Shown one piece after another: positions 2,511 through 60,754 of a DNA stretch of 64,000 nucleotides. Both the position numbers and the translations under genes were made by a program. This stretch comes from Protonemura montana (taxonomy: Eukaryota; Arthropoda; Insecta; Plecoptera; Nemouridae), in contig OX387611.1 in assembly GCA_947568835.1 (NCBI GenBank), positions 4,220,001 to 4,284,000 on the forward strand, given 5' to 3'. Every line of letters starts with the position of its first letter. Within the stretch, counting starts at the first letter, position 1. The notes beneath the pieces were generated by a model, which was not told the DNA's origin, did not search any database, and saw only the letters and a list, made by a program, of their open reading frames with translations.

Positions 2511-3003
2511 TTTTTTCCGTCAAGTACTCGATTGGCGGGTATTGGTTATTGTTGCTACACTCAATTAAAACTCTATGCATATAAATCTGGGTGATCTTTT
2601 GCCTTCTATCTTCTCTCCGTTTATTATTTATTCTTATATTCTTGTTCACATGTCCTCTTCTTCTCGATTAAAGCAAATTAAAAATCGACCTGTAATAAAG
2701 GTAATATGCCGACGATTATTATTTATGATGCTGCATACCTACAGCACAGCCAATCAAAGATGAGTTGGTGTGAGAAACACTTAGCAGACTTGAATTCGAT
2801 TCTCAACTCAAAGCCGAATCAAAAAATTACAATTTAGGTTCTTCTCCATTTTAGTTGCTCTGGCCAACTTTGCTTTTATGAGTTAAACGTTTATAAAATT
2901 GCAAGTAAAAGTGTAGAAAATTTGGGTAACAGTCAAATTAAGTGAACCAAACTGATTTTTAAGAATTTTGGTGATAAAGTAGATTGATTGATTTATTGTT
3001 GTG
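2511..3003. other. No recognised feature
   Basis: AT-rich; short ORFs only. Confidence 0.55.
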
Positions 3004-4232
3004 TTTAAAGACGCACTGTTTTGACATTTGGTCATGCGGCACTGGTCTAATGGCGTCGGTGAATGAGAGGATGATGATGAGCATAACCTAGCCTGGAAGG
3101 TAGGAAGAGAAATCTGGTACGAACACGTAGTCTACACCTGTTGAAGACCAAGGGGACTACCGGCTTAACGTCCCTTCCGAAGGACGGTACAACGCGATCA
3201 ACAGGATTCCTCCACAAATCCATGCTGTCGAGAGGTTGATAAGCAAGGCGAGTGAAGTTGCTGTACTAACTTTCATCCCTCCAACCTCTCTCCCGAACAG
3301 AACGGGTCTTGTGTATGATGGTCACACATCCAATACCTGACTCAGCGCAGTGTTGCTTAACTTTCATCCTTCCAACCTCTCTCCCGAACAGAACTGGTCA
3401 TGTGTATGATGGTCACTTATCCAATACCTGATCCAGCACAGTGTTGCTTAACTTTTATCCCTCCAACCTCTCTCCCGAACAGAACTGGTCATGTGTATGA
3501 TATTCACCCATCCAATACCTGATCCAGCGCAGTGTTGCTTAACTTTCATCCCTCCAACATCTCTCCCGAACAGAACTGGTCATGTGTATGATGGTCACCC
3601 ATCCAATACATGACCCAGCGCAGTGTTGCTTAACTTTCATCCCTCCAACCTCTCTCCCGAACAGAACTGGTCATGTGTATGATATTCACCCATCCAATAC
3701 ATGACCCAGCGCAGTGTTGCTTAACTTTCATCCCTCCAACCTCTCTCCCGAACAGAACTGGTCATGTGTATGATATTCACCCATCCAATACCTGATCCAG
3801 CGCAGTGTTGCTTAACTTTAATTCCTCCAACCTCTCTCCCGAACAGAACTGGTCATGTGTATGATGGTCACTCATCCAATACCTGACCCAGCGCAGTGTT
3901 GCTTAACTTTCATCCCTCCAACCTCTCTCCCGAACAGAACTGGTCATGTGTATGATGGTCACTTATCCAATACCTGATCCAGCACAGTGTTGCTTAACTT
4001 TTATCCCTCCAACCTCTCTCCCGAACAGAACTGGTCATGTGTATGATATTCACCCATCCAATACCTGATCCAGCGCAGTGTTGCTTAACTTTCATCCCTC
4101 CAACATCTCTCCCGAACAGAACTGGTCATGTGTATGATGGTCACCCATCCAATACCTGACTCAGCGCAGTGTTGCTTAACTTCGGTTATGTCATGAGAAC
4201 CGGTGTTTCCAACACGCCAAACCGTACCACCT
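3004..4232 (-). mobile_element. 5S-derived SINE, full length, about 10 tandem units
   Basis: Reading the minus strand, the 5S-like head starts near 4232 (GGTTTGGCGTGTTGGAAACA), then about ten 91-bp units (4180-3270), the body, and a tail ending in GTCTTTAAACAC at 3004. Head, array, body and tail are all present, so this is a complete expanded copy. Confidence 0.93.
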
Positions 4233-5214
4233 TTGGTAGTCTCTAATAGCACCAGGATGGGATTATTCGACGGTTTTGATTGTCAGCCTTGCAGTTTCTT
4301 TGAGTCTACATTTCCCATAAGCTTTGTTGAAATCTTGAAGGAAGTAGGCGGTCTGGAGTTCCCATTTATTGGTGTCTGAAAAGAACAAATCGCAAAACGG
4401 TTTCTGTTTTGTTGTAAACATTTTGTAAACCTATACATCAACACATGTGAATGTGTAGAAAAAAAATGAATGTTCACTTTTTAGTTAATTTGTTGCACGT
4501 GGTTTTTAAACGTTGTAAATGAGTCTACTTTTTTTTTTAAGTTGTAAACTGAAAGTGAAGGCTCCATAGGACAACTAATAGTTTAAAACAAGTTTGGAAA
4601 TTTAGTGTTCAAAGTGATTTGTTAAAATCTATGGCATGAAAAGGTAAAAAATTGTGGAATTTTATACAAAAATGTCTTAAAATTGATGAAAAAGCTTGTT
4701 TAAAAAAGGCAAATACTGCACCTTTCCTCACTACTGAATTTTACTAAAGGCAGCGTTTTTTAATAAAGCAACTATAGGTTTTTATCCTGAAAATACTGAA
4801 GGTTTGGGTACATTTTTGTGTCCTTGGTGATCTGAAGGTTCCCTTACTTTCGCTAAACGCACATTAAAAAAAAAAAACCACTTTAAAAAATTGTACCAAC
4901 TCTATGATAAAAAAATGCTTGGTTCTAAAAACTTTGATATTAATTCGATCATTAACAAGCATTAGCCATGCAGTTATTTCTTGGCAATCGATCTATGGAA
5001 ATTAAATCACGTACACCGAACTGGCTCCAACATTTTATTATTGAAATTTGCATCTAATTTTTTTTCTCACACGTCTCGTTGGACAATATTCTAAAGTTGT
5101 TATCGTCATGGTAACGTGTTTTTTAATTTCACACTTGCCTCCAATAAACAACAATGTGAGTTATCCTTGGCACGGGATAAAATTACATAATAATAAAATC
5201 ACAGGGAAATTTAG
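4233..5214. other. No recognised feature
   Basis: AT-rich with A- and T-runs; no supported gene. Confidence 0.55.
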
Positions 5215-6462: not shown

Positions 6463-7734
6463 GGTTGCGTAAACCACGCAACGGAAGATAATTATCATTT
6501 TATCTGTAATTCGCTTACAAATAATGCGTATTATTTTGCCCCGTCTACGTGCTACACAACGAAAAATCGAAACGACCAAATGAAAAAAAAATATGATTAC
6601 GAAATCTTTTGCCACTCGATCAAACTAGATTATTTCTAAAACAACGATAATCAGGTAATTATAACGTGTTCGACACGTACCACCAAGGTGGCCAACTTAA
6701 ACAGGAACAGGTGTAAAACTCGATACAATAAATCGCGGCTACGATCACGATCTTCTGAAATCAAGACACGAATTACATTTCCCCTTCAGATTTGCAAAAC
6801 AAAATTTTTTTTTTTATAATTTTTTTTTAATCAACCAATCGTTGTTGATCCACAATCATTATCATATGATCAGTCGCAATTTAAGCGCGAACGTGTTACA
6901 CAATTTTCTGACGTGATATGTCAAATTTTCACCTATTACAAGCACCTAGTAATCAAAAAATCTCTAACCCTTCGTTAGAGTGTTTTTGAAATTTTAATTC
7001 TACCGTTTAACCATTTATCCAGATCGACATGCCTTTAAAATCTTAGTTTACGTCGTTTCCAGACATAAACATGATATCCGTATACGTTCATTAAAAAAAA
7101 AAGGTTAACAGGTGTATGTTTTTTTTTCTCAAAAATATAGCATCAAATTTGATTTCTGTTTAAGAAAATCGAGTGTTAAATGTTAAATTAACGCCACAGC
7201 AGACTTTTGAAATAGGTACAAACAGAAACCTTCCACATTTTTTTTACACTTCCTTTTCAAAATCTGTTCAAAAAAACTGATACAATCTGTTTCTCATTGT
7301 TGGGAATCATGTTAATTTGTCAATTATTCAGCATCAAAGGGATATTCTTTCTGTCCATTCACCACATTTCCTTCCCGAAGTGACAAGAAAAGGGTTGGCA
7401 ATTCAAACCCTTTTTTCGGGCGGAAATCGACAGAAATCTAACGGGATAATATATCAAGTGGGTAAAGGGTTGGCATGTACTCAGATTTGAAAGATGCCTT
7501 TTCAAAACACTTCGTATCCGATATCTTGTGGAGATCTAACGGTAAACATTAATAGGTACATGAGGTATATCCGATATCTTAACCTTAATCTTGTGATCTA
7601 AGATCGCCTATCTTGTTAAGTTTGGGATGGTTAAACTACCCCTTTCTAGTTTCATATAAGAAGCTAATTGAATTCTCGTTTTATTGTGTATTAGATTGAG
7701 ATTTATTTCAAATATTTTGACCCAAAGTAAATCT
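6463..7734. other. No recognised feature
   Basis: AT-rich, with homopolymer runs near 6810-6830 and 7094-7130. Confidence 0.55.
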
Positions 7735-8285
7735 GTGCTGAGTCAGGTATTGGATGGGTGACCATCATAAACAAGACCAGTTCTGTTCGGAAGAGAGGTT
7801 AGAGGGATGAAAGTTAAGCAACACTGAGCTAAGTCAGGTATTGGATGGGTGGCCATTACATACATGACCAGTTCTGTTCGAGAGAGAGGTTGGAGAGATA
7901 AAAGTTAAGCAACACTGCGCTGGGTCAGGTATTAGATGGGTGACCATCACACACATGACCATGAGCAGTTAGAGCAGTTCTGTTCGGGAGAGAGGTTGGA
8001 GGGATGAAAGTTATTAAAGCAACTTCATTCGCCTTGCTTATCAACCTCTCGACAGCATGGATTTGTGGAGGAATCCTGTTGTTCGCGTCGTACCGTCCTT
8101 CGGAAGGGAAGTTAAGCCGGTGGTCCCCTTGGTCTTCGACAGGAGTAGGCAACGTGCCGGCACCGGGTTTCCCCTCCTCCCTTCTAGGCTAGGTTAGGTT
8201 CATTATCATCCTCATCATCATCCACTACACCGACGCCGGCCAAAACGCCCGTTGTCAAAACAATGCGTCGTTAAACCCCACGAAT
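7735..8285 (+). mobile_element. 5S-derived SINE, about 3 units plus body and tail
   Basis: Starts inside box C (GTGCTGAGTCAGGTATTGG), has about three units, one carrying a small insertion near 7966-7978, then the body and a degraded tail (GCGTCGTTAAAC at 8262). The 5S head is missing. Confidence 0.9.
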
Positions 8286-8894: not shown

Positions 8895-9320
8895 TTGTTT
8901 AATTTGTGGTGTTTAACGACACACTGTTTTGATAACTAGCCATGCGGCACTGGTCTAATGGCGTCGGTGAATGAGTGGATGATGATAAACCTATCATAGC
9001 GTTCAAGCGAGGAGGGAAAACCCGGTGCCGGCACGTAGCCTACTCCTGTTGAAGACCAAGGGGACCACCAGCTTAACTTCCCTTCCGAAGGACGGTACAA
9101 CGCGAACAACAGGATTCCTCCACAAATCCATGCTGTCGAGAGGTTGATAAGCAAGGCGAATGAAGTTGTTGTACTAACTTTCATCCCTCCAACCTCTCTC
9201 CCGAACAGAACTGGTCATGTGTATGATGGCCATCCATCCAATACCTGACACAGCGCAGTGTTGCTTAACATTCATCCCTCCAACCTCTCTCCCGAACAGA
9301 ACTGGTCATGTCATGTCACC
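8895..9320 (-). mobile_element. 5S-derived SINE, about 2 units, head truncated
   Basis: Minus-strand tail starts at TTGTGGTGTTTAACGACAC (8898). The body runs to about 9175 and two units follow before similarity stops near 9320. Confidence 0.9.
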
Positions 9321-11664
9321 TATCCACTTACAAAATCTATTGACCCAATGAAAACCCTCTCAATATCCATAAACGCAAGTAAATCAAGACACATTTCTAA
9401 ATCCAAGCCCAGCATTTCTACTTAGACTGTACCTCAGGAGATTATTACAGAGCTCGACTGGCAGTAGGTGGGGGTGTTCACTGGGCTCTCTTCTAAGCAC
9501 CTGCACATCAAAACCGGTCTCGCCCACAATACCTTGACCCTCCAGTCTTCCCACTCTATCCAACAACAACCCGAATACCTTCGTCTCACTCACCCACGTT
9601 CTACCTCGCATTCATTCCCTATCTATCATAATCGCGTTTCCATCTTTGTCCAATGAATCGATTTCACATAGCACTGTCTCACTCACAGGTATTATAACCT
9701 TTTCTATGACCCATCTCTTTCAAATGGGCCAATGATTCAAAGCGTAAAAAAAAACGTATCCTTCTAAAATTTCAAGCTATTATTAACAGTTAAATGCATC
9801 AATAAATTAGTATGTTTATTAATTATGGCTAGAGTTTTGTTTTCTACAGGTGTTAGGTTTGAAATTATGATAATTTGAGATGTGCATTTATGTTCTGATC
9901 GTAATCGATCATTACGTATCGATTAGTGATCGATATTGTCGATCTCGATCTCGTTGCTTCGGGGTTGAGCGACGTGTGTGGGGCAGTAAAATGAAACGTT
10001 TGAAAACGGATTTGCTATTCAACGAGTCATTTCACAGAATAACTTAACTTCAGTTCGGTGCTACTCGTTATTTGTTGGATCTGCCGCAGTTCAACGTCAC
10101 GGGAATCCGAGTGAATGGTTGAAAATCTGTCATTCTACGTTTTTAAAATGTGAGGTTAGGTGGTAATTTCGTGACTACTCAGCTGTTGGTAAGTTTGTCA
10201 ACGTTCAACAGTTGGCTCACCTGAATATTTAAAATTTTTCGGCACGGATTTTTACCGAATTACGATTTCAGTTGTTAACTTGTGTAATTCGATGTAAATC
10301 ATCAATGTTTTAGATGGAATTTTACTGATATTCTTTCAGAAAGTAGACAAGGATTTATTACAATCCGTGGCGGAATCCACGAAGCAAATTTAAAGCGTAA
10401 TCCTGATAGATTTAAAGGTTATGTTGTTATCACCGTGGTATGAACTGAATATAAAATAAAACACAGACTGTAATTGGTTGTTAATCTTTAAGTTCTAGTG
10501 TTGTAGAGCCGGCCTCTGATAAAAGTTCACAATCTTTTATTACCCGCTAAAAAGTCAGAATTATAACAATTGGGTAAAAAAGATCGAAATAACGGCTGGA
10601 TGCATTTCGTTTAGAAAATATTAGCCCAAACACAAACCAACGGAATTAAAATATCTAAACCAATTGAATAAAAAGCCTACCTTTGAAATGTCAAACGTAA
10701 CCAACCAAAGACCAGTCATCGAAAATCGACCCACTCACACATTTTTTTTGGCCCTCACCAAAGCGTGCGTGGTAACCGAGGTCCACCCCGGTCCACGCTT
10801 TCGTGTATTAGGTACCCCCATTCCATCATCCGCCTCTACCCATGAGTAGTCGGCCACATTTACAACGGTTCCAGTAAAAGCACCCATAAGCCCCCCGAGG
10901 GCTCCAAATAGCAGGTGCAACCAACTTCTTCGTCCACCACTCGCTCTGTCTACTTCGCTCTCTGTCCCACTAACATCGAGCACTGCTTTATTGGGGGCTT
11001 TGTCAAAGAACAATATCTTTCTCCTCGTCTTCGTCTTCTTCTTTATCTTCACGGCGAAGAGAAACGAGCCTTGTTGTAATCTTGAAGCTAGCCGAGGCCA
11101 TCGTCATTTTTCTCTGTGCTAGAGAATTCAAATTTAGATGGAGATTTTGTCTTTGGGGACTTTTTTGCTGGTTAAAATTTCGATATGGCTGTGTTCAGTA
11201 AAAAGGTGGTACTGTTGCAGCCTTTTGCCTCTCTCAATGCAAAGAACCATGAGTATGCCAGAACTTTGTTCGTATTTTGTGAGCTACACAATATTTGATA
11301 TGGATGTATTAGTATTTAAGAAGTCAATTAGTTGGATTGAGGTTTATCAGAAGATACAGACGCTATAAAAGTCTATAAATTGGGAATGCTGATCACGTCC
11401 GAGTTAAAAGTAATTGGAATCGGCTATACATTTTGCCAAGTTTCGATTTTAGCGCATTGAACCAAACAATGGGATGCGTTCTTTGAATGTCTCGTGCTGG
11501 TCCGTAGCCAATTGACAAGTGACTTTGAAGGTAAACCATAGATACCTTTTATAGAAGTGAAGCAAATGGTATTTGGACACCGTTCTCGGGCGATTCGGTC
11601 CAAGAAAGCTTGGAGACAACACATTGTTATTTGTTATCGTACACGGCTTTAACCTTATACATTG
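9321..11664. other. Mostly unannotated; CGAT cluster and a GC-richer patch
   Basis: 9340-9660 is C/T-rich without a gene I can support. 9899-9950 holds clustered CGAT motifs (listed separately). 10750-11110 is GC-richer and holds a 34-codon minus-strand ORF (11107-11003) of charged residues, too short to call. Confidence 0.5.
9899..9950. promoter_or_regulatory. CGAT/CGATA cluster
   Basis: Five CGAT tetramers in about 44 bp, including TATCG (9917-9921) and CGATA (9931-9935). In Drosophila, clustered CGATA sites bind BEAF-32 and overlap DREF sites. Function here is inference only. Confidence 0.25.
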
Positions 11665-11945
11665 AGTGAACATCATACACATGACCAGTTCTGTTCGGGA
11701 GAGAGGTTGGAGGGATGAAAGTTAAGCAACACTGCGCTGAGGTCAGGTATTGGATGGGTAACCATCATACGCGTGACCAGTTCTGTTCGGGAGAGAGGTT
11801 GGAGGGATAAAAGTTAGTACAGCAACTTCACTCGTCTTGCTTATCAACCTCTCAACAGCATAGATTTGTGTAGGAATCCTGTTGTTCACGTTGTACCGTC
11901 CTTCGGACGGGATTTTAAGCCGATTTTCCCCTTGGATTTCCAACC
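11665..11945 (+). mobile_element. 5S-derived SINE fragment, both ends truncated
   Basis: One and a half 91-bp units followed by the start of the body (CGACAGCAT-like, CCGTCCTTCGGACGG). Similarity ends near 11945; no tail or head. Confidence 0.88.
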
Positions 11946-13289: not shown

Positions 13290-14440
13290 TGAATGTCCCA
13301 GGTTCGATCCTGGTGGCCGGCGATCCTGGTAGTGAGAGCGCCATGTCTGCCTTGCATTCAGAAGGTTCCAGGTTCGATCCTGGTGGCCGGCTATCCTGGT
13401 AGTGAGAGCGCCATGTCTGCCTTGCATTCGGGAGGTCCCAGGTTCGATCCTGGTGGCCGGCTATCCTGGTAGTGAGAGCCTCATGTCTGCCTTGCATTCA
13501 GAAGGTTCCAGGTTTGATCCTGGTGGCCGGCTATCCTGGTAGTGAGAGCGCTATGTCTGCCTTGCATTCGGGAGGTCCCAGGTTCGATCCTGGTGACCGG
13601 CTATCCTGCTAGTGAGAGCGCCATGTCTGCCTTGCATTCAGGAGGTCCCAGGTTCGATCCTGGTGACCGGCTATCCTGGTAGTGAGAGCGCCATGTCTGC
13701 CTTGCATTCGGGAGGTCCCAGGCTCGATCCTGGTGGCCGGCTATACTGGTAGTGAGAGCGCCATGTCTGCCTTGCATTCGGGAGGTCCCAGGCTCGATCC
13801 TGGTGGCCGGCTATCCTGGTAGTGACAGCGCCATGTCTGCCTTGCATTCGGGAGGTCCCAGGTTCGATCCTGGTGGCCGGCTATCCTGGTAGTGAGAGCG
13901 CCATGTCTGCCTTGCATTCGGGAGGTCACAGGTTCGATCCTGGTGGCCGGCTATCCTGGTAGTGAGAGCGCCATGTCTGCCTTGCATTCAGAAGGTCCCA
14001 GGTTCGATCCTGGTGGCCGGCTATCCTGGTAGTGAGAGCGCCATGTCTGCCTTGCATTCAGGAGGTCCCAGGTTCGATCCTGGTGGCCGGCTATCCTGGT
14101 AGTGAGAGCGCCATGTCTGCCTTGCATTCAGGAGGTCCCAGGTTCGATCCTGGTGGCCGGCTATCCTGGTAGTGAGAGCGCCATGTCTACCTTACATTCA
14201 GAAGGTTCCAGGTTCGATCCTGGTGTCCGGCTATACTGGTAGTGAGAGCGCCATGTCTACCTTGCATTCAGAAGGTTCCAGGTTCGATCCTGGTGGCCGG
14301 CTATCCTGGTAGTGAGAGCGTCATGTCTGCCTTGCATTCGGGAGGTCCCAGGTTCGATCCTGGTGGCCGGCTATCCTGGTAGTGAGAGCGCCATGTCTGC
14401 CTTGCATTCGGGGGGTTCTAGGTTCGATCCTGGTGGCTGT
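13290..14440 (+). repeat. 70-bp tRNA-Ala-like minisatellite (17 T-arms)
   Basis: Period 70, read from GGTTCGATCC at 13301, 13371, 13441 and so on to 14421. Each unit has GGTAGTGAGAGCG (D-arm-like), CTTGCAT (anticodon-loop-like, TGC) and CCAGGTTCGATCCTGG, a T-arm with a B box that is perfect in almost every unit. GGCCGGC recurs every 70 bp and contains the palindrome GCCGGC, so adjacent copies can pair like an acceptor stem. D and anticodon stems are imperfect. Not a functional tRNA gene cluster as far as I can see. The 3' flank (ATTTGAGATATCATAGGG) may be the body of a tRNA-headed SINE. Confidence 0.95.
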
Positions 14441-15169: not shown

Positions 15170-16100
15170 GCGATTAGACCAGTGTCACATGGCCCGTTGT
15201 CAGAACAGTGACAAAACAGTTTGAAGTGTTGGAAACATCGGTTCTCATGAGATCACCGAATTTAAGCAACACTGCGCTGAGTCAGGTATTGGATGGGTGA
15301 CCATTATACACATGACCAGTTCTGTTAAGGAAAGAGGTTGGAGGAATGAAAGTTTAGCAACACTGCGCTGCGCTGTGTCAGGTATTGGATTGGTGACCAT
15401 CATACACATGACAAGTTCTGTTCGGGAAAGAGGTTGGAGGAATGAAAGTTAAGCAACACTGCGCTGCGCTGAGTCAGGTATTGGATGGGTGACCATCATA
15501 CACATGACCAGTTCTGTTCGGGAGAGAGGTTGGAGGGATGAAAGTTAAGCAACACTGCGCTGGGTCAGGTATTGGATGCGTGACCATCATACACATGACC
15601 AGTTCTGTTCGGGAGAGAGGTTGGAGGGATGAAAGTTAAGCAACACTGCGCTGGGTCAGGTATTGGATGGGTGACCATCATACACATGACCAGTTCTGTT
15701 CGGGAGAGAGGTTGGAGGGAAGAAAGTAAAGCAACACTGCGCTGGGTCAGGTATTGGATGGGCGACCATCATACACATGACCAGTTCTGTTCGGGAGAGA
15801 GGTTGGAGGGATAAAAGTTAGTACAGCAACTTCACTCGCCTTGCTTATCAACCTCTCGACAGCATGGATTTGTGGAGAAATCCTGTTGTTCGCGTTGTAC
15901 CGTCCTTCGGAAGGGACGTTAAGCCGGTGGTCCCCTTAGTCTTCGACAGGAGTAGGCTACGTGCCGGCACCGGATTTCCCCTCGTCCCTCGTCCCATCTA
16001 AGCTATGCTAGGTTCATCATCATCCACTTATTCACCGACGCCATTAGACCAGTGCCACATGGCTAGATATCAAAACAGTGCATCGTTAAAAATAATAAAA
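15170..16100 (+). mobile_element. 5S-derived SINE with head, about 6 units, body and tail; older tail fragment in front
   Basis: 15170-15225 is a SINE tail fragment (AGACCAGTGTCACATGG). A new 5S head follows directly (GTTGGAAACATCGGTTCTCA, GATCACCGAATTTAAGC), then about six units, the body and the tail. Two early units carry an extra GCTGC duplication inside the 5S part. Confidence 0.92.
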
Positions 16101-16806: not shown

Positions 16807-16832
16807 CAAGATTTTCAATCTTGAAAATCTTG
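16807..16832. repeat. Perfect 12-bp-arm hairpin at the array edge
   Basis: CAAGATTTTCAA and TTGAAAATCTTG separated by two bases, immediately before the first 54-bp unit. Confidence 0.9.
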
Positions 16833-17795
16833 TGCTGGTATCTTCACTCACGGGCTAGACTGTAGCAATGCAGGGGACAGTCCTTGTGCTGGTATCTTCT
16901 CTCACGGGCTAGACTGTAGCAATGCAGGGGACAGTCCTTGTTCTGGTATCTTCTCTCACGGGCTAGACTGTAGCAATGCAGGGGACAGTCCTTGTGCTGG
17001 TATCTTCTCTCACAGGCTAGACTGTAGCAATGCAGGGGACAGTCCTTGTTCTGGTATCTTCTCTCACGGGCTAGACTGTAGCAATGCAGGGGACAGTCCT
17101 TGTGCTGGTATCTTCTCTCACAGGCTAGACTGTAGCAATGCAGGGACAGTCCTTGTGCAGGTATCTTCTCTCACGGGCTAGACTGTAGCAATGCAGGCGA
17201 CAGTCCTTGTGTTTGTATCTTCTCTCACGGGCTAGACTGTAGCAATGCAGGGACAGTATTTGTGCTGGTATCTTCTCTCACTGGCTAAACTGTAGCAATG
17301 CAGGGGACAGTCCTTGTGCTGGTATCTTCTCTCACGGGCTAGACTGTAGCAATGCAGGGGACAGTCCTTGTGCTGGTATCTTCTTTCACGGGCTAGACTG
17401 TAGCAATGCAGGGGACAGTCCTTGTGCTGGTATCTTCTCTCACAGGCTAGACTTTAGCAATGCAGGGGACAGTCCTTGTGCTGGTATCTTCTCTCACAGG
17501 CTAGACTGTAGCAATGTAGGGGACAGTCCTTGTGTTTGTATCTTCTCTCACGGGCTAGACTGTAGCAATGCAGGCGACAGTCCTTGTGTTTGTATCTTCT
17601 CTCACGGGCTAGACTGTAGCAATGCAGGGACAGTATTTGTGCTGGTATCTTCTCTCACTGGCTAAACTGTAGCAATGCAGGGGACAGTCCTTGTGCTGGT
17701 ATCTTCTTTCACGGGCTAGACTGTAGCAATGCAGGGGACAGTCCTTGTGCTGGTATCTTCTCTCACTGGCTAGACTGTAGCAATGCAGGGGGCAC
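16833..17795 (+). repeat. 54-bp minisatellite, about 18 units
   Basis: Period 54 (GGTATCTTCT at 16837, 16891 and on), with some units one base short. Each unit has GACTGT and ACAGTC around a 13-base spacer, a potential hairpin. Confidence 0.98.
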
Positions 17796-17834: not shown

Positions 17835-18260
17835 CAGATGGGATTCAGTGGTGGATTCAATGTTTTGCTAGCCATGGAGATGCTGAGATCGCTTGACAGA
17901 GCTTCTCAATTCTGCTATCTTATGTTACCACGCGTATATCATGGCCTAGCATAGGAGGTTCAATGGTCGATTCAACGTTTGGTAGCCATGGAGATGCTGA
18001 GATCGCCTGACAGAGCTTCTCAATTCTGCTATCTTACGTTACCACGGGTATATCATGGCCTAGCATAGGAGGTTCAATGGTAGATTCAACGTTTGGTAGC
18101 CATGGAGATGCTGAGATCGCTTGACAGAGCTTTTCAATTCTGCTATCTTATGTTACCACGGGTATATCATGGCCTAGCATAGGAGGTTCAATGGTAGATT
18201 CAACGTTTGGTAGCCATGGAGATGCTGAGATCGCCTGACAGAGCTTCTCAATTCTGCTGG
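17835..18260 (+). repeat. 114-bp tandem repeat, about 3.7 units
   Basis: TTCAACGTTT recurs at 17971, 18085 and 18199, so the period is 114. Units include AGCCATGGAGATGCTGAGAT and ATATCATGGCCTAGCATAGG. Starts about 40 bp after the 54-bp array. Confidence 0.97.
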
Positions 18261-18929: not shown

Positions 18930-19580
18930 ACCCTGAGTGTGGTCACCCATCCAATACCTGACTCAGTGCAGTGTTGCTTAACTTTCATCCCTCCAACCTC
19001 TCTCCCGAACAAAACTGGTCATGTGTATGATGGCCACCCATCCAATACTTGACCCAGCGCAGTGTTACTGAACTTTTATCCCTCCAACCTCTCTCCCGAA
19101 CAGAACTGGTCTTGTGTATGATGGTCTCCCATCCAATACTTGACCCAGCGCAGTGTTGCTTAACTTTCATCCCTCCAACTTCTCTCCCGAACAGAACTGG
19201 TCATGTGTATGATGGTCGCCCATCCAATAACTAACCCAGCGCAGTGTTGCTTAACTTTCATCCCTCCAACCTCTCTCCCGAACAGAACTGGTCATGTGTA
19301 TGATGATCACCCATCCAATACCTGACTCAGCGCAGTGTTGCTTAACTTTCATCCCTCCAACCTCTCTCCCGAACAGAACTGGTCATGTGTATGATGGTCA
19401 CCCATCTAATACCTGACGCAGCTCAGTGTTACTTAACTTTCATCCCTCCAACCTCTCTCCCGAACAGAACTGGTCATGTGTATGATGGTCACCCATCCAA
19501 TACCTGACTCAGCACAGTGTTGCTTAACTTCTGTGATCTCACAAGAACCGATGTTTCCAACACGACAAACCGTTCTGTTT
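18930..19580 (-). mobile_element. 5S-derived SINE, about 6.6 units with head, no body
   Basis: Minus-strand head at 19580-19530 (GTTTGTCGTGTTGGAAACAT, CGGTTCTTGTGAGATCACAG) followed by units down to 18930, where it stops inside box C. Body and tail are absent. Confidence 0.93.
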
Positions 19581-20425: not shown

Positions 20426-21960
20426 CTGATGGTCACCCATCCAATACCTGAACCAGCGCAGTGTTGCCGAACTTTCATCCCTCTAATCTCTCTCCCAAAC
20501 AGAACTGGTCATGTGTATAATGGTCACCCATCCAATACCTGACCCAGCGCAGTGTTGCCGAACTTTCATCCCTCCAATCTCTCTCTCGAACAGAACTGGT
20601 CATGTGTATGATGGTCACCCATCCAATACCTGACCCAGCGCAGTGTTGCTTAACTTTCATCCCTCCAACCTCTCTCCCGAACAGAACTGGTCATGTGTAT
20701 GATGGTCACCCATCCAATACCTGACCCAGCGCAGTGTTGCTTAACTTTCATCCCTCCAACCTCTCTCCTGAACAAAACTGGTCATGTGTATGATGGTCAC
20801 CCATCCAATACCTGACCCAGCGCAGTGTTGCTTAACTTTCATCCCTCCAACCTCTCTCCTGAACAAAACTGGTCATGTGTATGATGATCACCCATCCAAT
20901 ACCTGACCCAGCACAGTGTTGCTTGACTTTCATCCCTCCAGCCTCTCTCCCGAACAGAACTGGTCATGAGTATGATGGTCACCCATCCAATACCTGACCC
21001 AGCGCAGTGTTGCTTAACTTTCATCCCTCCAACCTCTCTCCCGAACAGAACTGGTCATGTGTATGATGGTCACCCATCCAATACCTGACCCAGGGCAGTA
21101 TTGCTTAACTTTCATCCCTCCAACCTCTCTCCCGAACAGAACTGGTCATGTGTATGATGGTCACCCATCCAATACCTGACCCAGCGCAGTGTTGCTTAAC
21201 TTTCATCCCTCCAACCTCTCTCCCGAACAGAACTGGTCATGTGTATGATGGTCACCCATCCAATACCTGACCCAGCACAGTGTTGCTTAACTTTCATCCC
21301 TCCAACCTCTCTCCCGAACAGAACTGGTCATGAGTATGATGGTCACCCATCCAATACCTGACCCAGCGCAGTGTTGCTTAACTTTCATCCCTCCAACCTC
21401 TCTCCCGAACAGAACTGGTCATGTGTATGATGGTCACCCATCCAATACCTGACCCAGGGCAGTATTGCTTAACTTTCATCCCTCCAACCTCTCTCCCGAA
21501 CAGAACTGGTCATGTGTATGATGGTCACCCATCCAATACCTGACCCAGCGCAGTGTTGCTTAACTTTCATCCCTCCAACCTCTCTCCCGAACAGAACTGG
21601 TCATGTGTATGATGGTCACCCATCCAATACCTGACCCAGCACAGTGTTGCTTAACTTTCATCCCTCCAACCTCTCTCCCGAACAGAACTGGTCATGTGTA
21701 TGATGGTCACCCATCCAATACCTGACTCAGCGCAGTGTTGCTTTACTTTCATCCCTCCAACCTCTCTCCCGAACAGAACTGGTCATGTGTACGATGGTCA
21801 CCCATCCAATACCTGACCCAGCACAGTGTTGCTTAACTTTCATCCCTTCAACCTCTCTCCCGAACAGAACTAGTCATGTGTATGATGGTCACCCATCCAA
21901 TACCTGACCCAGGGCAGTGTTGCTTAACTTCGGTGAACCCGAGAAGCCAAACCGTTAATC
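20426..21960 (-). mobile_element. 5S-derived SINE, largest array (about 16 units), no body
   Basis: Minus strand. A degraded head at 21960-21930 leads into about 16 units of 91 bp, ending at 20427 inside box C. A higher-order pattern is visible: a block of units (around 20930-21230) is repeated almost unchanged at 21300-21600, including the AGGGCAGTATTG variant. This implies recent multi-unit duplication. Confidence 0.96.
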
Positions 21961-21977: not shown

Positions 21978-22012
21978 TTCATTTGTAGTGTTTGACGACG
22001 CACTGTTTTTTA
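21978..22012 (-). mobile_element. SINE tail fragment
   Basis: TTTGTAGTGTTTGACGACGC plus ACTGTTTT matches the SINE 3' end on the minus strand. It lies 20 bp from the head of the previous array. Confidence 0.65.
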
Positions 22013-23842: not shown

Positions 23843-26211
23843 GTAAGACATTTTGCTGGCAAAAGTCTGGCTTAGTCTTGTCCCTTTGACACACTGTGTT
23901 GGCAGCTCCTGTCCAACAGCACCAAGGACCGGCCACCGCTTAGCCTTGTCACTTTGACACACTGTGTTGGCAGCTCCTGTCCAACAACACCAAGGACCGG
24001 CCACCGCTTAGCCTTGTCCCTTTGACACACTGTGTTGGCTACTCCTGTCCAACAGCACCAAGGGCCGGCCACCGCTTAGCCTTGTCACTTTGACACACTG
24101 TGTTGGCTGCTCCTGTCCAACAGCACCAAGGACCGGCCACCGCTTAGCCTTGTCCCTTTGACACACTGTGTTGGCTGCTCCTGTCCAACAGCACCAAAGA
24201 CCGGCCACCGCTTAGCCTTGTCACTTTGACACACTGTGTTGACTGCTCCTGTCCAACAGCACCAAGGACCGGCCACCGCTTAGCCTTGTCACTTTGACAC
24301 ACTGTGTTGGCTGCTTCTGTCCTACAGCACCAAGGACCGGCTACCGCTTAGCCTTGTCACTTTGACACACTGTGTTGACTGCTCCTGTCCAACAGCACCA
24401 AGGGCCGGCCACCGCTTAGCCTTGTCACTTTGACACACTGTGTTGGCTGCTTCTGTCCTACAGCACCAAGGACCGGCTACCGCTTAGCCTTGTCACTTTG
24501 ACACACTGTGTTGACTGCTCCTGTCCAACAGCACCAAGGACCGGCCACCGCTCAGCCTTGTCACTTTGACACACTGTGTTGGCTGCTCCTGTCCAACAGC
24601 ACCAAGGACCAGCCACCGCTTAGCCTTGTCCCTTTGACACACTGTGTTGGCTGCTCCTGTCCAATAGCACCAAGGACCGGCCACCGCTTAGCCTTGTCCC
24701 TTTGTCACACTGTGTTGACTGCTCCTGTCCAACAGCACCAAGGACCGGCCACCGCTCAGCCTTGTCACTTTGACACACTGTGTTGGCTGCTCCTGTCCAA
24801 CAGCACCAAGGACCAGCCACCGCTTAGCCTTGTCCCTTTGACACACTGTGTTGGCTGCTCCTGTCCAATAGCACCAAGGACCGGCCACCGCTTAGCCTTG
24901 TCCCTTTGTCACACTGTGTTGGCTGCTCCTGTCCAACAGCACCAAGGACCGGCCACCGCTTAGCCTTGTCACTTTGACACACTGTGTTGGCTGCTCCTGT
25001 CCAATAGCACCAAGGACCGGCCACCGCTTAGCCTTGTCCCTTTGTCACACTGTGTTGGCTGCTCCTGTCCAACAGCACCAAGGACCGGCCACCGCTTAGC
25101 CTTGTCCCTTTGACACACTGTGTTGGCTGCTCCTGTCCAACAGCACCAAGGACCGGCCACCGCTTAGCCTTGTCACTTTGACACACTGTGTTGGCTGCTC
25201 CTGTCCAACAGCACTAAGGACAGACCACTGCTTAGCCTTGTGGATTAAATTAGGATAAGACAATAAAACTAATTTAGCAAATAGTAAATGTTTGCAACTA
25301 TCCAGGTTTAGGTGTCGGAAGTCCTGCTCTAGCAACGACTGCAACGCAAAGCCTCCCGGTGTTGGCCAACGCCGGACCCGACGTTGGCGCCAAACCCAAA
25401 CGAGTCCACAGTGGAAGTCCTGGGCTGTCGACGAGCACTGGTGGCACTGTCAGGCGCCCGATAGAAACTTGCCCGAAGACCTACACGAAGAACTCGATCA
25501 TCAAGCACTTTGACTTGCCCAGAAATAGTGATGAGATGTTTAATGTAAGAGAAAACTTGAATTATTATTGTTTTTAGACTCATGTCTACTTTATCTAAAC
25601 TTAGCACTAGTTTTAACAAAAACTATTTCAACTTGGTTTTGAATGCTAAGTGAAGAACAACTAAATTCTCCAACGTTCCGTAACTTGTACCTGTTACTTT
25701 ATCAAGGTAAGAGCAGTCCTTCATTTATATCTTAAATTATATCTTATAATTATAAATATATTTATATATTTATATGTATGCATATTTGTTTTGAAATTTG
25801 ATTTCTTTTTTACTCACAGATAACTCGCATTTGAGACTGGTTTACCCTCAATTAATCTCTATTCATACTAACTTCAACTGTTTAATTTAATATTCAATTT
25901 AATTTGTCAAAAAGAGTTGGCATTCAAAACCCAGTTGAAATAGTTTTTGTCAAAAACCACTCTTATAACTAATGCTTGACAACTTTAATTGATCTCCATA
26001 AGAAAAACACGGAACTAGAAACTGTAAAATGGTGTTTTGCACATAATTAAAATGCATTTCTAGATGACTTTGTACCTGTTTTGTTTGTCTGCAGAATTGC
26101 CGGAGTGACCAGCCCCCGGAGAGGTTTGTAGAGGTGCATCGAAGACTTGCAATTATCTCTGAAGAACAGGAGGCTGAGAAACCTCACGGTGGCCACACCC
26201 CTATTATGTGA
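23521..26211 (+). CDS. Unnamed spliced gene, coiled-coil-like protein of 223 residues
   Basis: Predicted coding exons are 23521-23842, 25312-25544 and 26095-26211 (stop TGA 26209-26211), total 672 nt. The first ATG follows an in-frame TAA 13 codons upstream. Junctions: GTAAGA donor at 23843 with acceptor TTTAG ending 25311 (phase 1; an in-frame alternative acceptor ends at 25305); GTAAGA donor at 25545 with acceptor CTGCAG ending 26094 (phase 0). Residues 8-97 are rich in Leu, Glu, Arg and Lys and look helical or coiled coil. Residues 109-150 are Ser/Thr/Pro/Gly-rich and probably disordered. A basic stretch ending KTYTKNSIIKHFDLPRNSD and an acidic tail follow. I do not recognise the family. 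Three junctions that keep one frame to a stop make a real gene likely. Intron 1 is nearly all 68-bp minisatellite. Confidence 0.72.
23874..25240 (+). repeat. 68-bp minisatellite filling intron 1 of the unnamed gene (about 20 units)
   Basis: Period 68 read from successive GCCTTGTC blocks (23943, 24011 and on). Units differ by few bases (CCC/CAC, GGC/GAC, AACAGC/AATAGC). Each contains TGTTGG and CCAACA ten bases apart, a short inverted repeat. The array starts about 30 nt after the donor and ends about 70 nt before the acceptor. Confidence 0.98.
25312..25544 (+). CDS. Unnamed gene, exon 2
   Basis: Follows TTTAG; the first two bases complete a Gly codon. Encodes a Ser/Thr/Gly-rich segment, then VRRPIETCPKTYTKNSIIKH and FDLPRNSDEMFN up to a GTAAGA donor. 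An acceptor 6 nt earlier (CCAG, ending 25305) would add two residues in frame. Confidence 0.7.
25569..25715 (+). mobile_element. Element F copy in intron 2 of the unnamed gene
   Basis: Begins 25 nt after the exon 2 donor. Contains AGACTCATGTCTAC, CTATTTCAACTTGG, GTAACTTGTACCTGTTAC and ends near AGAGCAGTCCT. Confidence 0.88.
25805..25960 (-). mobile_element. Element E fragment joined to element F fragment
   Basis: 25815-25860 matches the E 3' part in reverse (CTCGCATTTGAGACTGGTTT). 25918-25958 matches F (AAAACCCAGTTGAAATAGTT). Both lie inside intron 2 of the unnamed gene. Confidence 0.7.
26095..26211 (+). CDS. Unnamed gene, exon 3 with stop
   Basis: Follows TTGTTTGTCTGCAG. 38 codons, NCRSDQPPERFVEVHRRLAI then an acidic and His-rich end, and TGA. 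In frame with exon 2. Confidence 0.7.
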   Translation, partial: NCRSDQPPERFVEVHRRLAIISEEQEAEKPHGGHTPIM

Positions 26212-28710: not shown

Positions 28711-29242
28711 GTGGGAGAGAGGTTGGTGATGTGAAATTTTGAAATCTACTTCAATTTCCATTACAGTCAATTTTCACATGTGTTTTACTTAATTTTTTTA
28801 TCTTCAACTTTTTTTTTTTTTTTTTTTTGGTAATGTTTGGTTACATTAAAAGAAAAATCTTCGTCCTAATTTCTTGGAACCCACTTCAAGATAGCTGAAT
28901 GAAAAGCTTCATTTATAAATATATTTAAATTGCAGTTCGCTGATTTATAACGCTTTTCTGAAACCTCTGAAAGACCGCTTAAAAATGAAAGTTACAAGAC
29001 TGCACCTTTTAAAGCTGCAAAAAAAAACACGAACAATGCAAAGAAATCAACCTTTGGGGCAAATAACTAACAAAAGCGAATTAATCCCACGCCACGCGAC
29101 CGAAATCTTGCATAATAAACGATTGCCGAACAAAGGGAAAACAAAAACTCAGTTGAATCAAGTTTTAAAATTTTTAAGTGGTCTTCCTTTGATTCATTTT
29201 CATCTTGCTAAATGTCAATATCTTAATTCGACCAATCAAACG
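28711..29242. other. No recognised feature
   Basis: T-run at 28809-28828; nothing else supported. Confidence 0.5.
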
Positions 29243-30385
29243 GTTTGTCGTGTTGGAAACACCGGTCCACGTGATATCACCGAAGTTAAGCAACACTGCG
29301 CTGAGTCAGTTATTGGATGGGTGACTATCATACACATGACCAGTTCTGTTCGGGATAGAGGTTGAAGGGATGAAAGTTAAGCAACACTGCGCTGGGTCAG
29401 GTATTGGATGGGTGACCATCATACAAATGACCAGTTCTGTTTGGGAGAGAGGTTGGAGGCATGCAAGTTAAGCAACACTGCGCTGGGTCAGGTATTGGAT
29501 GGGTGACCATCATACACATGACCAGTTCTGTTCGGGAGAGAGGTTGGAGGGATGAAAGTTAAGCAACACTGCGCTGGGTCAGGTATTGGATGGGTGACCA
29601 TCATACAAATGACCAGTTCTGTTTGGGAGAGAGGTTGGAGGCATGCAAGTTAAGCAACACTGCGCTGGGTCAGGTATTGGATGGGTGACCATCATACACA
29701 TGACCAGTTCTGTTCGGGAGAGAGGTTGGAGGGATGACAGTTAAGCAACACTGCGCTGGGTCAGGTATTGGATGGGTGACCATCATACACATGACCAGTT
29801 CTGTTCGGGAAAGAGGTTGGAGGGATGACAGTTAAGCATCACTGCGCTGGGTCAGGTATTGGATGGGTGACCATCATACAAATGACCAGTCCTGTTTGGG
29901 AGAGAGGTTGGAGGCATGAAAGTTAAGCAACACTGCGCTGGGTCAGGTATTGGATGGGAGACCATCATACACATGACCAGTTCAGTTCGGGAGAGAGGTT
30001 GGAGGGATAAAAGTTAAGCAACACTGCGCTGGGTCAGGTATTGGATGGTTGACCATCATACACAAGACCAGTTCTGTTCGGGAGAGAGGTTGGAGGGATG
30101 AAAGTTAGTACATCAACTTCACTCGCCTTGCTAATCAACCTCTCGACTGCAAGGATTTGCGGAGGAATCCTGTTGTTCACGTTGTACCGTCCTTCGGAAG
30201 GGACGTTAAGCCGGTGGTCCCCTTGGTCTTCGACAGGAGTAGGCTACGTGTCAGCACCGGGTTTCCCCTCCTCCCTTCTAGGCTAGGTTAGATGTATCAT
30301 AATCCACTTATTCACCGACGGCATTAGACCAGTGCCACTTGGCCCGTTGTCAAAACAGTGCGTCGTTAAATATAATCAATCAATC
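29243..30385 (+). mobile_element. 5S-derived SINE, full length with about 9 units
   Basis: Head ACGGTTTGTCGTGTTGGAAA then ATCACCGAAGTTAAGC, about nine units (29280-30100), full body and tail (GCGTCGTTAAATATAATC then ATCAATCA). Alternating unit variants (CATACACATG / CATACAAATG with GTTTGGGAG) show that pairs of units were duplicated together. Confidence 0.95.
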
Positions 30386-31545: not shown

Positions 31546-32140
31546 TCCTAAATGTCTTGAGATCTACAGCCAAAATCATGCATTTCAACACATTTTTTTG
31601 TTGGTCCTCACAAAATATTAACGTAAATTTTGCTGCTGATATAAAGAACTAAAAATCTGTGCAGAGTACAGATAATTTTCACCGCTATAAAATCTAAAAA
31701 TATCAAACTTCAATGGAGACATTAGTAATTTAAGAAACCAGTTTTTGCATTATCGAAATTTAATAACTTTCAAATGTTCTGCTATACATATTTTTTTTAA
31801 GCAATCTTATTTCGGCGAGCAATTACCTTCAATTTAACTAGTACACTTATTAACTATAATTATTTAAACTTAATTACTTAATGTTAAGTTTTTGGGACAT
31901 ACAAAAACCTACTTTTAATTCTACTAAACATTATGCAATGAACTGATTTTTCCAGACAACAGGTGGTGTCTGATTTTTAAAACACGATATACCTACATTC
32001 AGTATATACATTTATAATATTTCACAAAGAATAAGTTGCGAACAATACAGTTCAGAAAAATGTCAGCTGTCAGAATTAATTGAAATTGGGCTTCGATGAC
32101 AAATGTAACAAATGTAAGTTATCAAAATTATCCTAAATTT
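31546..32140. other. No recognised feature
   Basis: AT-rich. Confidence 0.5.
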
Positions 32141-32690
32141 GCAGCTAGAATGCAGGCCGAGTCCAGGAAATCCCTGCTAGCCACGTGACCTAGCTGATAT
32201 GGAACTCTGTGTCCCAGCGTTTGCAGCTGGAATGCAGGCCGAGTCCAGGAAATCCCTGCTAGCCACGTGACCTAGCCGACATGGAACTCTGTGTCCCAGC
32301 GTTTGCAGCTGGAATGCAGGCCGAGTCCAGGAAATCCCTGCTAGCCACGTGACCTAGCCGACATGGAACTCTGTGTCCCAGCGTTTGCAGCTGGAATGCA
32401 GGCCGAGTCCAGGAAATCCCTGCTAGCCACGTGACCTAGCTGATATGGAACTCTGTGTCCCAGCGTTTGCAGCTGGAATGCAGGCCGAGTCCAGGAAATC
32501 CCTGCTAGCCACGTGACCTAGCCGACATGGAACTCTGTGTCCCAGCGTTTGCAGCTGGAATGCAGGCCGAGTCCAGGAAATCCCTGCTAGCCACGTGACC
32601 TAGCTGATATGGAACTCTGTGTCCCAGCGTTTGCAGCTGGAATGCAGGCCGAGTCCAGGAAATCCCTGCTAGCCACGTGACTTAGCTGTC
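32141..32690 (+). repeat. 82-bp minisatellite with palindromic E-box, about 6.7 units
   Basis: TTGCAGCTGG at 32221 and 32303 gives a period of 82. Units are nearly identical. All but the last hold GCTAG-CCACGTGAC-CTAGC (first at 32176-32194), a 19-bp near-palindrome centred on CACGTG; the last unit reads GTGACTTAGC. The GTCACGTGGC form matches USF/MITF-type sites. Confidence 0.97.
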
Positions 32691-34794: not shown

Positions 34795-35770
34795 TTTCGA
34801 TTCAGAACACTGCGCTTGGTCAGGTATTAGATGGGCGACCATCATACACATGACCAGTTCTGTTTGGGAGAGAGGCTGGAGGGTTGAAAGTCAAGCAACA
34901 CTGCGCTGGATCAGGTATTGGATGGGTGACCATCATACACATGACCAGTTCTGTTCGGGATAGAGGTTGGAGGGATGAAAGTTAAGCAACACTGCGCTGG
35001 GTCAGGTATTGGATGGGTGACCATCATACACATGACCAGTTCTGTTCGGGATAGAGGTTGGAGGGATGAAAGTTAAACAACACTGCGCTGAGTCAGGTAT
35101 TGGATGGGTGACCATCATACACATGACCAGTTCTGTTTGGGAGAGAGGTTGGTGGGATGAAAGTTAAGCAACACTGCGCTGGGTCAGGTATTGGATGGGT
35201 GACCATCACACAAATGATCAGTTCTGTTCGGGAGAGAGGTTGGAGGGATGAAAGTTAAGCAACACTGCGCTGGGTCAGGTATTGGATGGGTGACTATCAT
35301 ACACATGACCAGTTTGGTTCGGGAGAGAGGTTGGAGGGATGAAAGTTAAGCAACACTGCGCTGGGTCAGGTATTGGATGGGTGACCATCACACACATGAC
35401 CAGTTCTGTTCGGGAGAGAGGCTGGAGGGATGAAAGTTAAACAACACTGCGCTGGGACAGGTATTGGATGGGTGACCATCATACACATGACCAGTTCTGT
35501 TCGGGATAGAGGTTGGAGGGATGAAAGTTAAGCAACACTGCGCTGGGTCAGGTATTGGATGGGTGACCATCATACACATGACCAGTTCTGTTCGGGATAG
35601 AGGTTGGAGGGATGAAAGTTAAGCAACACTGCGCTGGGTCAGGTATTGGATGGGTGACTATCATACACATGACCAGTTTTGTTCGGGAGAGAGGTTGGAG
35701 GAATGAAAGTTAAGCAACACTGCGCTGGGACAGGTATGGGATGGGTGAACATTATACACATGACTAGCTC
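34795..35770 (+). mobile_element. 5S-derived SINE array only, about 10.5 units
   Basis: Starts in the 5S part (AACACTGCGCTTGGTCAGG) and ends after a last box C (ATGGGTGAACATTATACACA). No head, body or tail. Confidence 0.95.
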
Positions 35771-36849
35771 TGAAAACACAACCAATAAATTAAAATTGTT
35801 TATCAGGCAATATAAATTAAACTTAAAAATGAATTTTAGTGTTTTTTAAAGTGTACCAGAGTTGGATTTTAAAAAATAATAACAAAAAAATGTAATTTGT
35901 ATACAAATAAAATGTATTACAATATAATCTAACGGAAGTCAGCCAAGAAATTGACCTACTTTGCAAAGAAAATAATCCGCACAATCTTGCTCCAAAAACT
36001 ATCCACCCTTGTCTTTGATCTTCTACGTTGCAACCGCACTGAGTTTGAGCCGAGACCTGCCTAAAGGCGAACAAGAACCCTCTTATGCAGGGTGGTCCAC
36101 TGCTTCCATATCCACACCTTGCATTTTCAAGAGAGTGAAAGGTACCGCCCTTCGAAAAACCCATGCGCTGCATCAAAATCATCCCCTATTGTCTGGAGAT
36201 CACGTGACTTGGGCCTATTGTTGGATTGCGTGTGGTCAAAGGCAGCTGTAGGGCGGTCATTGTTGGTGTGCCATTGTGTGAGGAGTGATTTTTAGGTGGC
36301 GTGAACGCGGTGGTCATCACGTTTTTTGGTTTTTGGCATCTTTAAATTGTTAATTTCTAAGCTGTACTGTTTGGTTGCATAGGAGATAAAAAATTTCTGA
36401 CAAAATTTGCAGAAGTATACATGCTATATATCAATTTATTTTCGTAAATATATTTTTTTTTGTGTTTTCTTTAAATAACCACAGTCAATGCAAGTAAATT
36501 TGCTAATTTCCTTTTTTCAAAAATTTGTGTTGCTCGGTTCCAGTGATTTTTTTCAGGGCGAATCAAAAATTAAAGCTTTAACGCTGATCCTATGACAGTA
36601 ACTCAAATCGAAAATACTGACAAAGATTTGAATTTAATATCAACTAAACAACAACAATAAACACTTTAAAACAACAATAAAATGAAACAATACATATTCC
36701 ACTACCTTTATAGATTTTTACAGAAGGTTAAGCAAAAATAGAATTCAACAATAGCTAGGTTTCAACAATCAACGAATTTGGGCTCGCGCTATGGTGTTCA
36801 AAAGTCAAAATTGTATTTAAGAAAGATCCTAACAAATATTTTACCAAAA
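35771..36849. other. No supported gene; GC-richer patch at 35990-36260
   Basis: The patch has open frames on both strands (about 120 codons on minus) and one TCACGTGA at 36199-36206. I see no recognisable domain or splice structure. Confidence 0.4.
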
Positions 36850-37525
36850 TGACAGCTGGCCTGCGGCACTGGTCTAATGGCGTCGGTGAATGAGCGGATG
36901 ATGATGAACCTAACCTAGCATAGACGGGAAGAGGGGAAACCTGGTGCCGGCACGTAGCCTACTCCTGTCGAAAACCAAGGGGATCGCCGGCTTAACGTCC
37001 CTTCCGAAGGACGGTACAACGGGAACAACAGGATTCCTCCACAAATCCATGCTGTCGAGAGGTTGATAAGCAAGGCGAGTGAAGTTGATGTACTAACTTT
37101 CATCCCACCAACCTCTCTCCCGATCAGAACTGGTCATGTGTATGATGGTCATCCATCCAATACCTGACTCAGCACAGTGTTGCTAAATTTTCATCCCTCC
37201 AACCTCTCTCCCGAACAGAACTGGTCATGTGTATGATGATCACCCATCCAATACCTGACCCAGCGCAGTGTTGCTTAACTTTCATCCCTCCAACCTCTCT
37301 CCCGAACAGAACTGGTCATGTGTATGATGGTCATCCATCCAATACCTGACCCAGCGCAGTGTTGCTTAACTTTCATCCCTCCAACCTCTCTCCCGAACAG
37401 AACTGGTCATGTGTAAGATGGTCACCCATCCAATACCTGACCCAGTGCAGTGTTGCTTAACTTTCATCCCTCCAACCTCTATCCCGAACAGAACTGGTCA
37501 TGTGTAAGATGGTCACCAATCCAAC
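36850..37525 (-). mobile_element. 5S-derived SINE, body and about 5 units
   Basis: Minus strand: tail part from CTGCGGCACTGG (36861), body to about 37095, then about five units to 37525. The extreme tail and the head are missing. Confidence 0.93.
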
Positions 37526-39725: not shown

Positions 39726-40135
39726 GTCTTCGTAAAGGAGTGGACACACGCCGTCGCCTCTGTGCTGGACATTCCGTGACAGGGTGCTTGTTTCACTCCA
39801 CGCAAAGGAGCGGACACTCGCCGTCGCCTCTGTGCTGGACATTCCGTGACAGGATGCTTGTTTCGCTCCATGCAAAGGAGCGGACACTCGCCGTCACCTC
39901 TGTGCTGGACATTCCGTGACAGGGTGCTTGTTTCGCTCCACGCAAAGGAGCGGACACTCGCCGTCGCCTCTGTGCTGGACATTCCGTGACAGGATGCTTG
40001 TTTCGCTCCATGCAAAGAAGCGGACACTCGCCGTCGCCTCTGTGCTGGACATTCCGTGACAGGATGCTTGTTTCGCTCCATGCAAAGGAGCGGACACTCG
40101 CCGTCGCCTCTGTGCTGGACATTCCATGATACGTT
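39726..40135 (+). repeat. 70-bp minisatellite, about 6 units, downstream of hairy
   Basis: AAAGGAG-type starts at 39734, 39804, 39874, 39944, 40014 and 40084. Most units carry GCTCC and GGAGC around seven bases, a potential hairpin. Overlapping minus-strand frames here are repeat artefacts. Unrelated in sequence to the 70-bp array at 13.3 kb. Confidence 0.97.
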
Positions 40136-52009: not shown

Positions 52010-52375
52010 GAAGTGTTTGTTGAAACTGTTGCCATGACGACTTCCAATCACATGCAGTGAAATTCAGATGTTTCTGAGAGCTAGAGATCCAACTTATAGT
52101 TGAACATTTTGTTGAAACTGTTGCCATGACGACTTTCAATCACATGGAGTGAAATTCAGATGTTTCTGTGAGCTAGAGATCCAACTTATAGTTGAACATT
52201 TTGTTGAAACTGTTGCCATGACGACTTCCAATCACATGCAGTGAAATTTAGATGTTTCTGTGAGCTAGAGATCCAACTTATAGTTGAACATTTCGTTGAA
52301 ACTGTTGCCATGACGACTTCCAATCACATGCAGTGAAATTTAGATGTTTCTGTGCGCTAGCAGCTTAACTCAGTG
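52010..52375 (+). repeat. 92-bp tandem repeat, about 4 units, 1 kb upstream of hairy
   Basis: TGAAACTG at 52021, 52113, 52205 and 52297 gives a period of 92. Units include TTGCCATGACGACTTCCAAT and CACATGCAGTGAAATT. Confidence 0.97.
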
Positions 52376-60705: not shown

Positions 60706-60754
60706 GAATCACTGATTACATCAGTCAAATCAAACCCGAAAAAATTCTAAAACA

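Follow-up and report, generated by a model that had tools for sequence, protein, structure and literature searches.

Expanded copies of a 5S rRNA-derived SINE in the stonefly Protonemura montana appear to retrotranspose, such that arrays of a 91-bp unit containing the element's own 5S-like control region are inherited together with the element. We consider it probable, taking the explanation as a whole, that a duplication of the two-part unit (segments A and B, described below) was followed by retrotransposition of multi-unit RNA and then by local reshaping of the arrays. An initial annotation of the window (the whole 64,000-nucleotide stretch of DNA that was analyzed) had offered transposition of expanded copies or local expansion of the segment as alternatives; both can be traced, the former through target-site duplications and the mixture of unit types at 25 of 32 loci, the latter through higher-order repeats.

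Structure and abundance of the element

Parsing of the window and 24 fetched loci into 63 blocks (including a few spurious simple-repeat matches, at L023, L030, and L031) revealed that full copies have the form head–(AB)n–tail and are often cut short. The head (48 bp) spans the start of 5S to just before box A, segment A (44 bp, unit positions 1–44) holds box A, the intermediate element (IE), and box C, segment B (47 bp, unit positions 45–91) completes the unit, and the tail is ~280 bp long; the locations of the three boxes in head+A follow what we take to be the box positions of 5S. This composition agrees with the earlier description of the unit as a control region plus about 45 bp.

The proposed 5S origin is borne out by two lines of comparison. 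Five window heads score above the gathering threshold of the Rfam 5S rRNA model (best 51.2 bits, E 9.2e-8), as do heads in L026, L040, and L046, and an ungapped alignment of head+A with the 5S gene of this genome has 70 identities in 92 positions, where none of 2000 shuffles exceeded 42; the origin therefore stands when set against random alignment, the check proposed with the initial annotation. Segment A is identical to the genome's 5S at the beginning of box A and over its own final 14 bp (box C), with unchanged spacing, while the 3′ end of 5S is missing from the element and B bears no 5S likeness by eye. As in the SINE3 class, a 5S rRNA-derived 5′ region with boxes A, IE, and C is present in a dispersed element of high copy number whose 3′ end is a variable simple repeat (AATAAT-type). 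The unit had also been described as free of any run of four T; this is true of a 418-bp consensus but not of 2 of the 16 units in the array at 20.4 kb, and absence from the consensus is uninformative because 28.6% of its shuffles likewise lack TTTT. The 5S genes themselves recur on both strands in the first 106 kb of contig C11, where the initial 50 kb show a period of ~9.5 kb; they may be part of a larger ribosomal DNA repeat.

The window contains only a small part of the family. Across the 258.5-Mb genome (34 contigs), 24,375 unit–unit, 6,698 unit–tail, and 5,275 head–unit junctions were counted at up to two mismatches, alongside 5,980 matches to the tail core, and reversed-pattern controls for the junctions gave 0 each genome-wide. 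The ~3.6 unit–unit junctions per tailed copy should be read as a high estimate because tail-less arrays are counted too. A second register of 92 bp, in which head+A is repeated with A joined straight to the head, contributes 1,622 junctions genome-wide; box A, IE, and box C are kept with 5S spacing in both registers (91 and 92 bp). One copy, at L046, combines the two (seven head+A units and five B units, then the tail). Pure head+A arrays that have neither B nor tail and end inside a head were seen at L030 (4133–4637) and L050 (1430–1607). On contig C1 (33.1 Mb), inspected with the subtelomeric preference of SINE-derived satellites in mind, the 74 exact tail matches listed comprise 15 below 1.4 Mb, 53 above 26 Mb, and 6 between, a distribution that describes exact matches on a single contig whose ends are not shown to be telomeres. 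Between 28.84 and 32.19 Mb of the same contig, the plus strand carries 42 of the 43 exact tail matches that were listed, and head matches occur on both strands; this excess may be a real bias or an effect of listing.

Units occur at 16 loci of the window (a lone B fragment near 42 kb excluded). The full-length reference copy (61808–62246, plus strand; Rfam 5S score 51.2 bits) has one unit between head and tail and is flanked by a 12-bp target-site duplication (61796–61807 and 62247–62258, plus), and an old copy with a tail divergence of 14.7% (47847–48196, plus) is likewise single-unit, the parse confirming the initial annotation for both. Head and tail enclose 10 units at 2996–4225 (minus), 9 at 29239–30370 (plus), and 6 at 15215–16099 (plus; two units share a private 5-bp insertion, and the tail remnant of another copy lies directly 5′); a degraded head precedes 6 units and a tail at 59836–60709 (plus, again with another copy's tail remnant 5′), and a head, 3 units, and a partial tail occupy 63212–63662 (minus). 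Four copies are 5′-truncated, consisting of part of a unit, 4 units, and the tail (36850–37524, minus), 3 units and the tail (7725–8285, plus), part of a unit, 1 unit, and the tail (8902–9311, minus), and part of a unit, 1 unit, and a partial tail (11663–11940, plus). At least 3 units and a tail at 1–571 (plus) are cut by the window edge. The remaining loci are tail-less, with a head, 6 units, and A at 18941–19578 (minus), ~10 units without head or tail at 34806–35772 (plus), 6 units and A without head or tail at 43724–44310 (plus), and the array at 20.4 kb to which we return below. Among 32 multi-unit loci, head and tail are both present at 17, the tail only at 8, the head only at 2, and neither at 5, a tally in which some loci are cut by region edges and tailed copies are favored by the sample.

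These arrays lie in a genome that is minisatellite-rich. Over 254 kb (the window and L023–L042), TRF detected 28 arrays of the 91-bp unit and 28 others belonging to 20 families (period at least 25, at least 2.5 copies). Eight further minisatellites of the window have units of 53–114 bp (1779–2307, 16829–17791, 17844–18258, 23870–25241, 32138–32688, 39734–40129, 52016–52360, and 55593–56416). Dispersed loci also carry a repeated tRNA-like head with a unit of 52 bp (13,070 unit–unit junctions genome-wide; arrays at 3775–3975, 4510–4823, and 8487–8951 of L040 and 7925–8394 of L026), with an intact A box and a weak B box when judged against the consensus motifs that we assumed, and 16 overlapping tRNA-like units of 70 bp are found at 13295–14437 (plus; tRNA score 27.4 bits, under the gathering cut-off). 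Multiplied Pol III-type heads therefore occur at least twice, where much else is multiplied. Elsewhere in the window, an open frame on the minus strand (41091–41858) with Hairy-Orange and HLH matches and WRPW at its end resembles a Hes/hairy-type transcription factor exon.

Probable transmission of multi-unit copies

Exact target-site duplications of at least 9 bp, a further property of SINE3 elements, flank 10 of 35 tailed copies (chosen for an almost complete tail and the presence of both flanks) as compared with 0.25% of mismatched pairs; the flanks of the other 25 share no exact match of that length. The ten copies hold 1, 1, 1, 1, 1, 2, 3, 4, 6, and 8 B units, and tailed copies end in the variable AATAAT-type 3′ end. 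In 17 of the 35, the match to the element starts at the first base of the head and the flanks are unrelated. The copy with 8 B units, at L025, is 5′-truncated, consisting of part of a unit followed by seven full units within a 14-bp duplication; since it was cut inside a unit and retains seven more, its RNA must have held at least two. At L043, a single B accompanies a duplicated head+A within a 12-bp duplication.

The distribution of unit variants points in the same direction. Position 22 (G/A) is a common polymorphism outside CpG, and both states are found at 25 of the 32 multi-unit loci (24.5 under random reassortment), with other non-CpG sites mixed at a mean of 3 loci and a maximum of 11. 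The first unit of headed copies carries A at this position in 11 of 19 cases, where drawing a unit at random from the same locus would give 6.1 (p 0.002); the last unit has no such excess (10 of 25, expected 9.1). Sampled internal units carry A in 27 of 119 cases, and genome-wide exact head+first-unit matches divide into 726 with A and 810 with G, a set that also contains one-unit copies and inner head+A units. Exclusive clustering of the units of a locus, named earlier as the pattern contrary to transposition of expanded copies, was seen at 0 of 27 loci. Unit number is not higher in copies whose tails are more diverged (43 copies, rho −0.17, p 0.27), and the 25 copies with a tail divergence below 6% already hold 0–8 B units; ages in this comparison are divergences from a consensus that may lump subfamilies.

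The duplications, the mixing of units, the first-unit signature, and the lack of exclusive clusters speak against growth out of one inserted unit at most sampled loci, although gene conversion between loci is another possible source of mixed arrays. Loci L023–L042 lie on contig C1 and, apart from the off-target L042, were chosen to surround exact tail matches (19 of 20), because of which the C1 sample is biased toward copies that are young and have a tail; the window, for its part, is a single dense region. L023, whose parse was confused by simple repeat, is excluded from the unit and target-site statistics, and L043, L049, and L050 from the unit set. An assembly artefact is unlikely, as dispersed copies have their own flanks and target-site duplications.

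How such a lineage could arise is suggested by a short stretch that A and the tail have in common at their starts, which may have aided an early duplication of A+B. The tail begins AAGTTAgtacAGCAAC and A begins AAGTTAAGCAAC; owing to this resemblance, short direct repeats in array register already bound an element with one unit, an arrangement that would be suited to slippage or template switching. Multi-unit RNAs would then be copied and inserted by target-primed reverse transcription, and after insertion slippage or unequal exchange would add, lose, and homogenize units locally; some arrays, that at 20.4 kb among them, lack tail or head.

Putative promoter role and local growth of the units

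A further claim, compatible with retrotransposition of expanded copies, is that the extra units form a promoter array under selection, increasing transcription or allowing 5′-truncated copies to remain active. That both registers retain the three boxes at 5S spacing is consistent with this, as is the multiplication of a tRNA-like family. However, A is no better conserved than B (divergence 4.1% vs 3.4%, p 0.09), such that neither promoter constraint nor selection on extra promoters is visible in the sequence, and just two of the 20 other array families, the two that were examined for it, look tRNA-like. Selection of this kind is accordingly possible but doubtful, and given the many other arrays the multiplication of a promoter may be incidental.

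By analogy, the extra units might act as Pol III promoters in the way that monomers of mouse L1Md, whose promoter is of the Pol II type, do for that polymerase. Each unit might also bind TFIIIA/TFIIIC and a Pol III transcript might cross the array, as the initial annotation suggested. We tentatively entertain a Pol III counterpart of the L1 monomers, that is an active SINE lineage with serial type 1 promoters inherited via retrotransposition, in which a start at an internal unit would keep 5′-truncated copies promoter-competent and to which the tRNA-headed element would be a parallel. An internal unit would then start RNA ~48 nt upstream of its box A, at unit position ~44–45. The starts of two headless copies that have target-site duplications fall close to this position (L037 at unit position 47, L025 at 48–53), while the starts of headless copies overall are spread. 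5S-type promoters in retroposed copies are presumed weak or silent, after Kapitonov and Jurka as given in the accessible text of PMC3272025, and a mobile tandem type 1 control region would show one means by which a SINE could escape that state. The family would also link SINE retrotransposition directly to the birth of minisatellites, and its copies, natural constructs that number in the thousands and have from 1 to over 20 putative promoters, would allow Pol III initiation, the binding of TFIIIA, and the growth of arrays to be tested.

More than one Pol III-derived head per SINE is likewise a feature of the Twin SINE of Culex and of dimeric SINEs, which differ in being fixed dimers of the tRNA type. 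The initial annotation knew of no family with serial control regions. For 5S SINEs none was found in the accessible parts of the open-access literature searched, which does not extend to Repbase or Dfam, but tandem arrays of SINE parts (PMC10702118) and serial promoter monomers (PMC6454616) have been published, and from the accessible text of these papers the nearest precedents are the SINE-derived satellites of reptiles and the monomers of mouse L1, respectively. In the latter, the internal promoter consists of a variable number of tandem 5′ UTR monomers, thanks to which promoters are held to survive a truncation-prone mode of retrotransposition; the two models considered are second-strand priming and unequal crossing-over (PMC6454616, accessible text). 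L1Md is an autonomous LINE with monomers of ~200 bp and mapped transcription starts (same text), whereas the present family is a SINE and presumed Pol III-transcribed; copying of arrays by retrotransposition, the point of likeness, is indicated here indirectly, by target-site duplications, mixed units, the first-unit signature, and the 0 of 27 exclusive clusters. With the SINE3 examples HaSE3, PxSE4/5, and AfuSINE3 (PMC3272025, PMC8010984, and PMC5063351, in their accessible main texts), the element shares a head that resembles 5S, boxes A, IE, and C included, on an unrelated body, and target-site duplications occur at some HaSE3 relatives; the word tandem is absent from those main texts, and a multiplied head is not described in them. 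PcH-sat of Patella, tandem DNA that likewise comes from part of a SINE (Nin-SINE), is a pericentromeric satellite without Pol III boxes according to the accessible text of PMC11121367, whereas the 91-bp unit has boxes.

The squamate satellites (sSats) are the model for an alternative in which single-unit SINEs insert and each then expands in place, expanded copies themselves not jumping. As described in the accessible text of PMC10702118, sSats are tandem units of ~70–290 nt, each a piece of a SINE, and in most snakes they occupy thousands of loci; unit number varies widely, locus-specific subvariants alternate, and the 67-nt unit of snakes includes promoter box B. Both systems multiply a portion of a SINE in tandem at numerous loci. 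In contrast to sSats, which are tRNA-derived (PMC10702118, accessible text), the family here is 5S-derived and repeats a whole type 1 control region in two registers; an sSat array is usually joined to one SINE end (same text), whereas here both ends are present at 17 of 32 multi-unit loci; and the terms target site and TSD are absent from the main text of PMC10702118, whereas duplications flank expanded copies here.

Local reshaping is nonetheless real, and several of its traces would also be expected from growth in place. L053 and L054 contain four-unit and two-unit higher-order repeats, private variants recur in at least two units at 7 of 27 loci, the nearest neighbor of a unit is from the same locus in 29% of cases (3.7% by chance), units of the same locus differ at 3.9 of 91 positions and those of different loci at 5.3, and one 5-bp insertion variant is restricted to a single locus. 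Rarer variants have no shared order between loci (308.6 observed vs 328.7 ± 19.0 shuffled), and the 28 other arrays in 20 families attest to a minisatellite-prone genome. Tracing of a second unit variant (13 units at six loci, with differing backgrounds at the two loci fetched) is not decisive, a few chance recurrences being expected from variant frequencies. Against growth in place alone stand both position-22 states at 25 of 32 multi-unit loci, a first-unit signature common to dispersed loci, array size that does not increase with age, and the truncated copy at L025 with its multi-unit RNA; we therefore regard this alternative as unlikely, and favor retrotransposition of multi-unit copies with subsequent local reshaping.

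Tail-less arrays and the locus at 20.4 kb

Arrays without a tail stand apart as a class. All eight with a known end terminate at unit positions 42–68 (window arrays at 19.0, 20.4, 35.8, and 44.3 kb, and L030, L033, L053, and L054); L043, L046, L049, and L050 were excluded from this survey, and artefactual rows for the 7.7-kb copy (which has a tail), the head+A array of L030, and L038 (head present) were set aside. A self-cleaving ribozyme was considered as the cause of these ends, and no Rfam ribozyme match reached the gathering threshold in the window. That arrays, or at least tail-less ones such as that at 20.4 kb, spread as DNA (circles or rolling-circle transposons) and not as RNA would accommodate both the clustering of their 3′ ends and the outcome of a search for target-site duplications at five of them (an 8-bp candidate at 43.7 kb, nothing clear at three, and one mis-anchored, the result for the 19.5-kb array being void as its end motif matched an inner unit), but is very improbable in the face of the duplications and variable AATAAT-type 3′ ends of tailed copies.

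The array at 20.4 kb, which the initial annotation had presented as a SINE with a multiplied promoter and about 16 units, is a derivative without a tail and with a damaged head, and not an intact SINE. The unit count itself is confirmed by TRF (20427–21930; period 91, 16.5 copies, 96% matches), and the parse resolves the array on the minus strand as h[5-30](AB)16A, i.e., 16 full units of A (44 bp) and B (47 bp) followed by a last A. Its 5S-like head (21931–21956, minus) is shortened by internal deletions. Immediately 5′ of this head is the 3′-end remnant of a separate SINE copy (21981–22009, minus); such tail remnants close 5′ of another copy's head are found in the window at 15.15, 59.7, and 22.0 kb.
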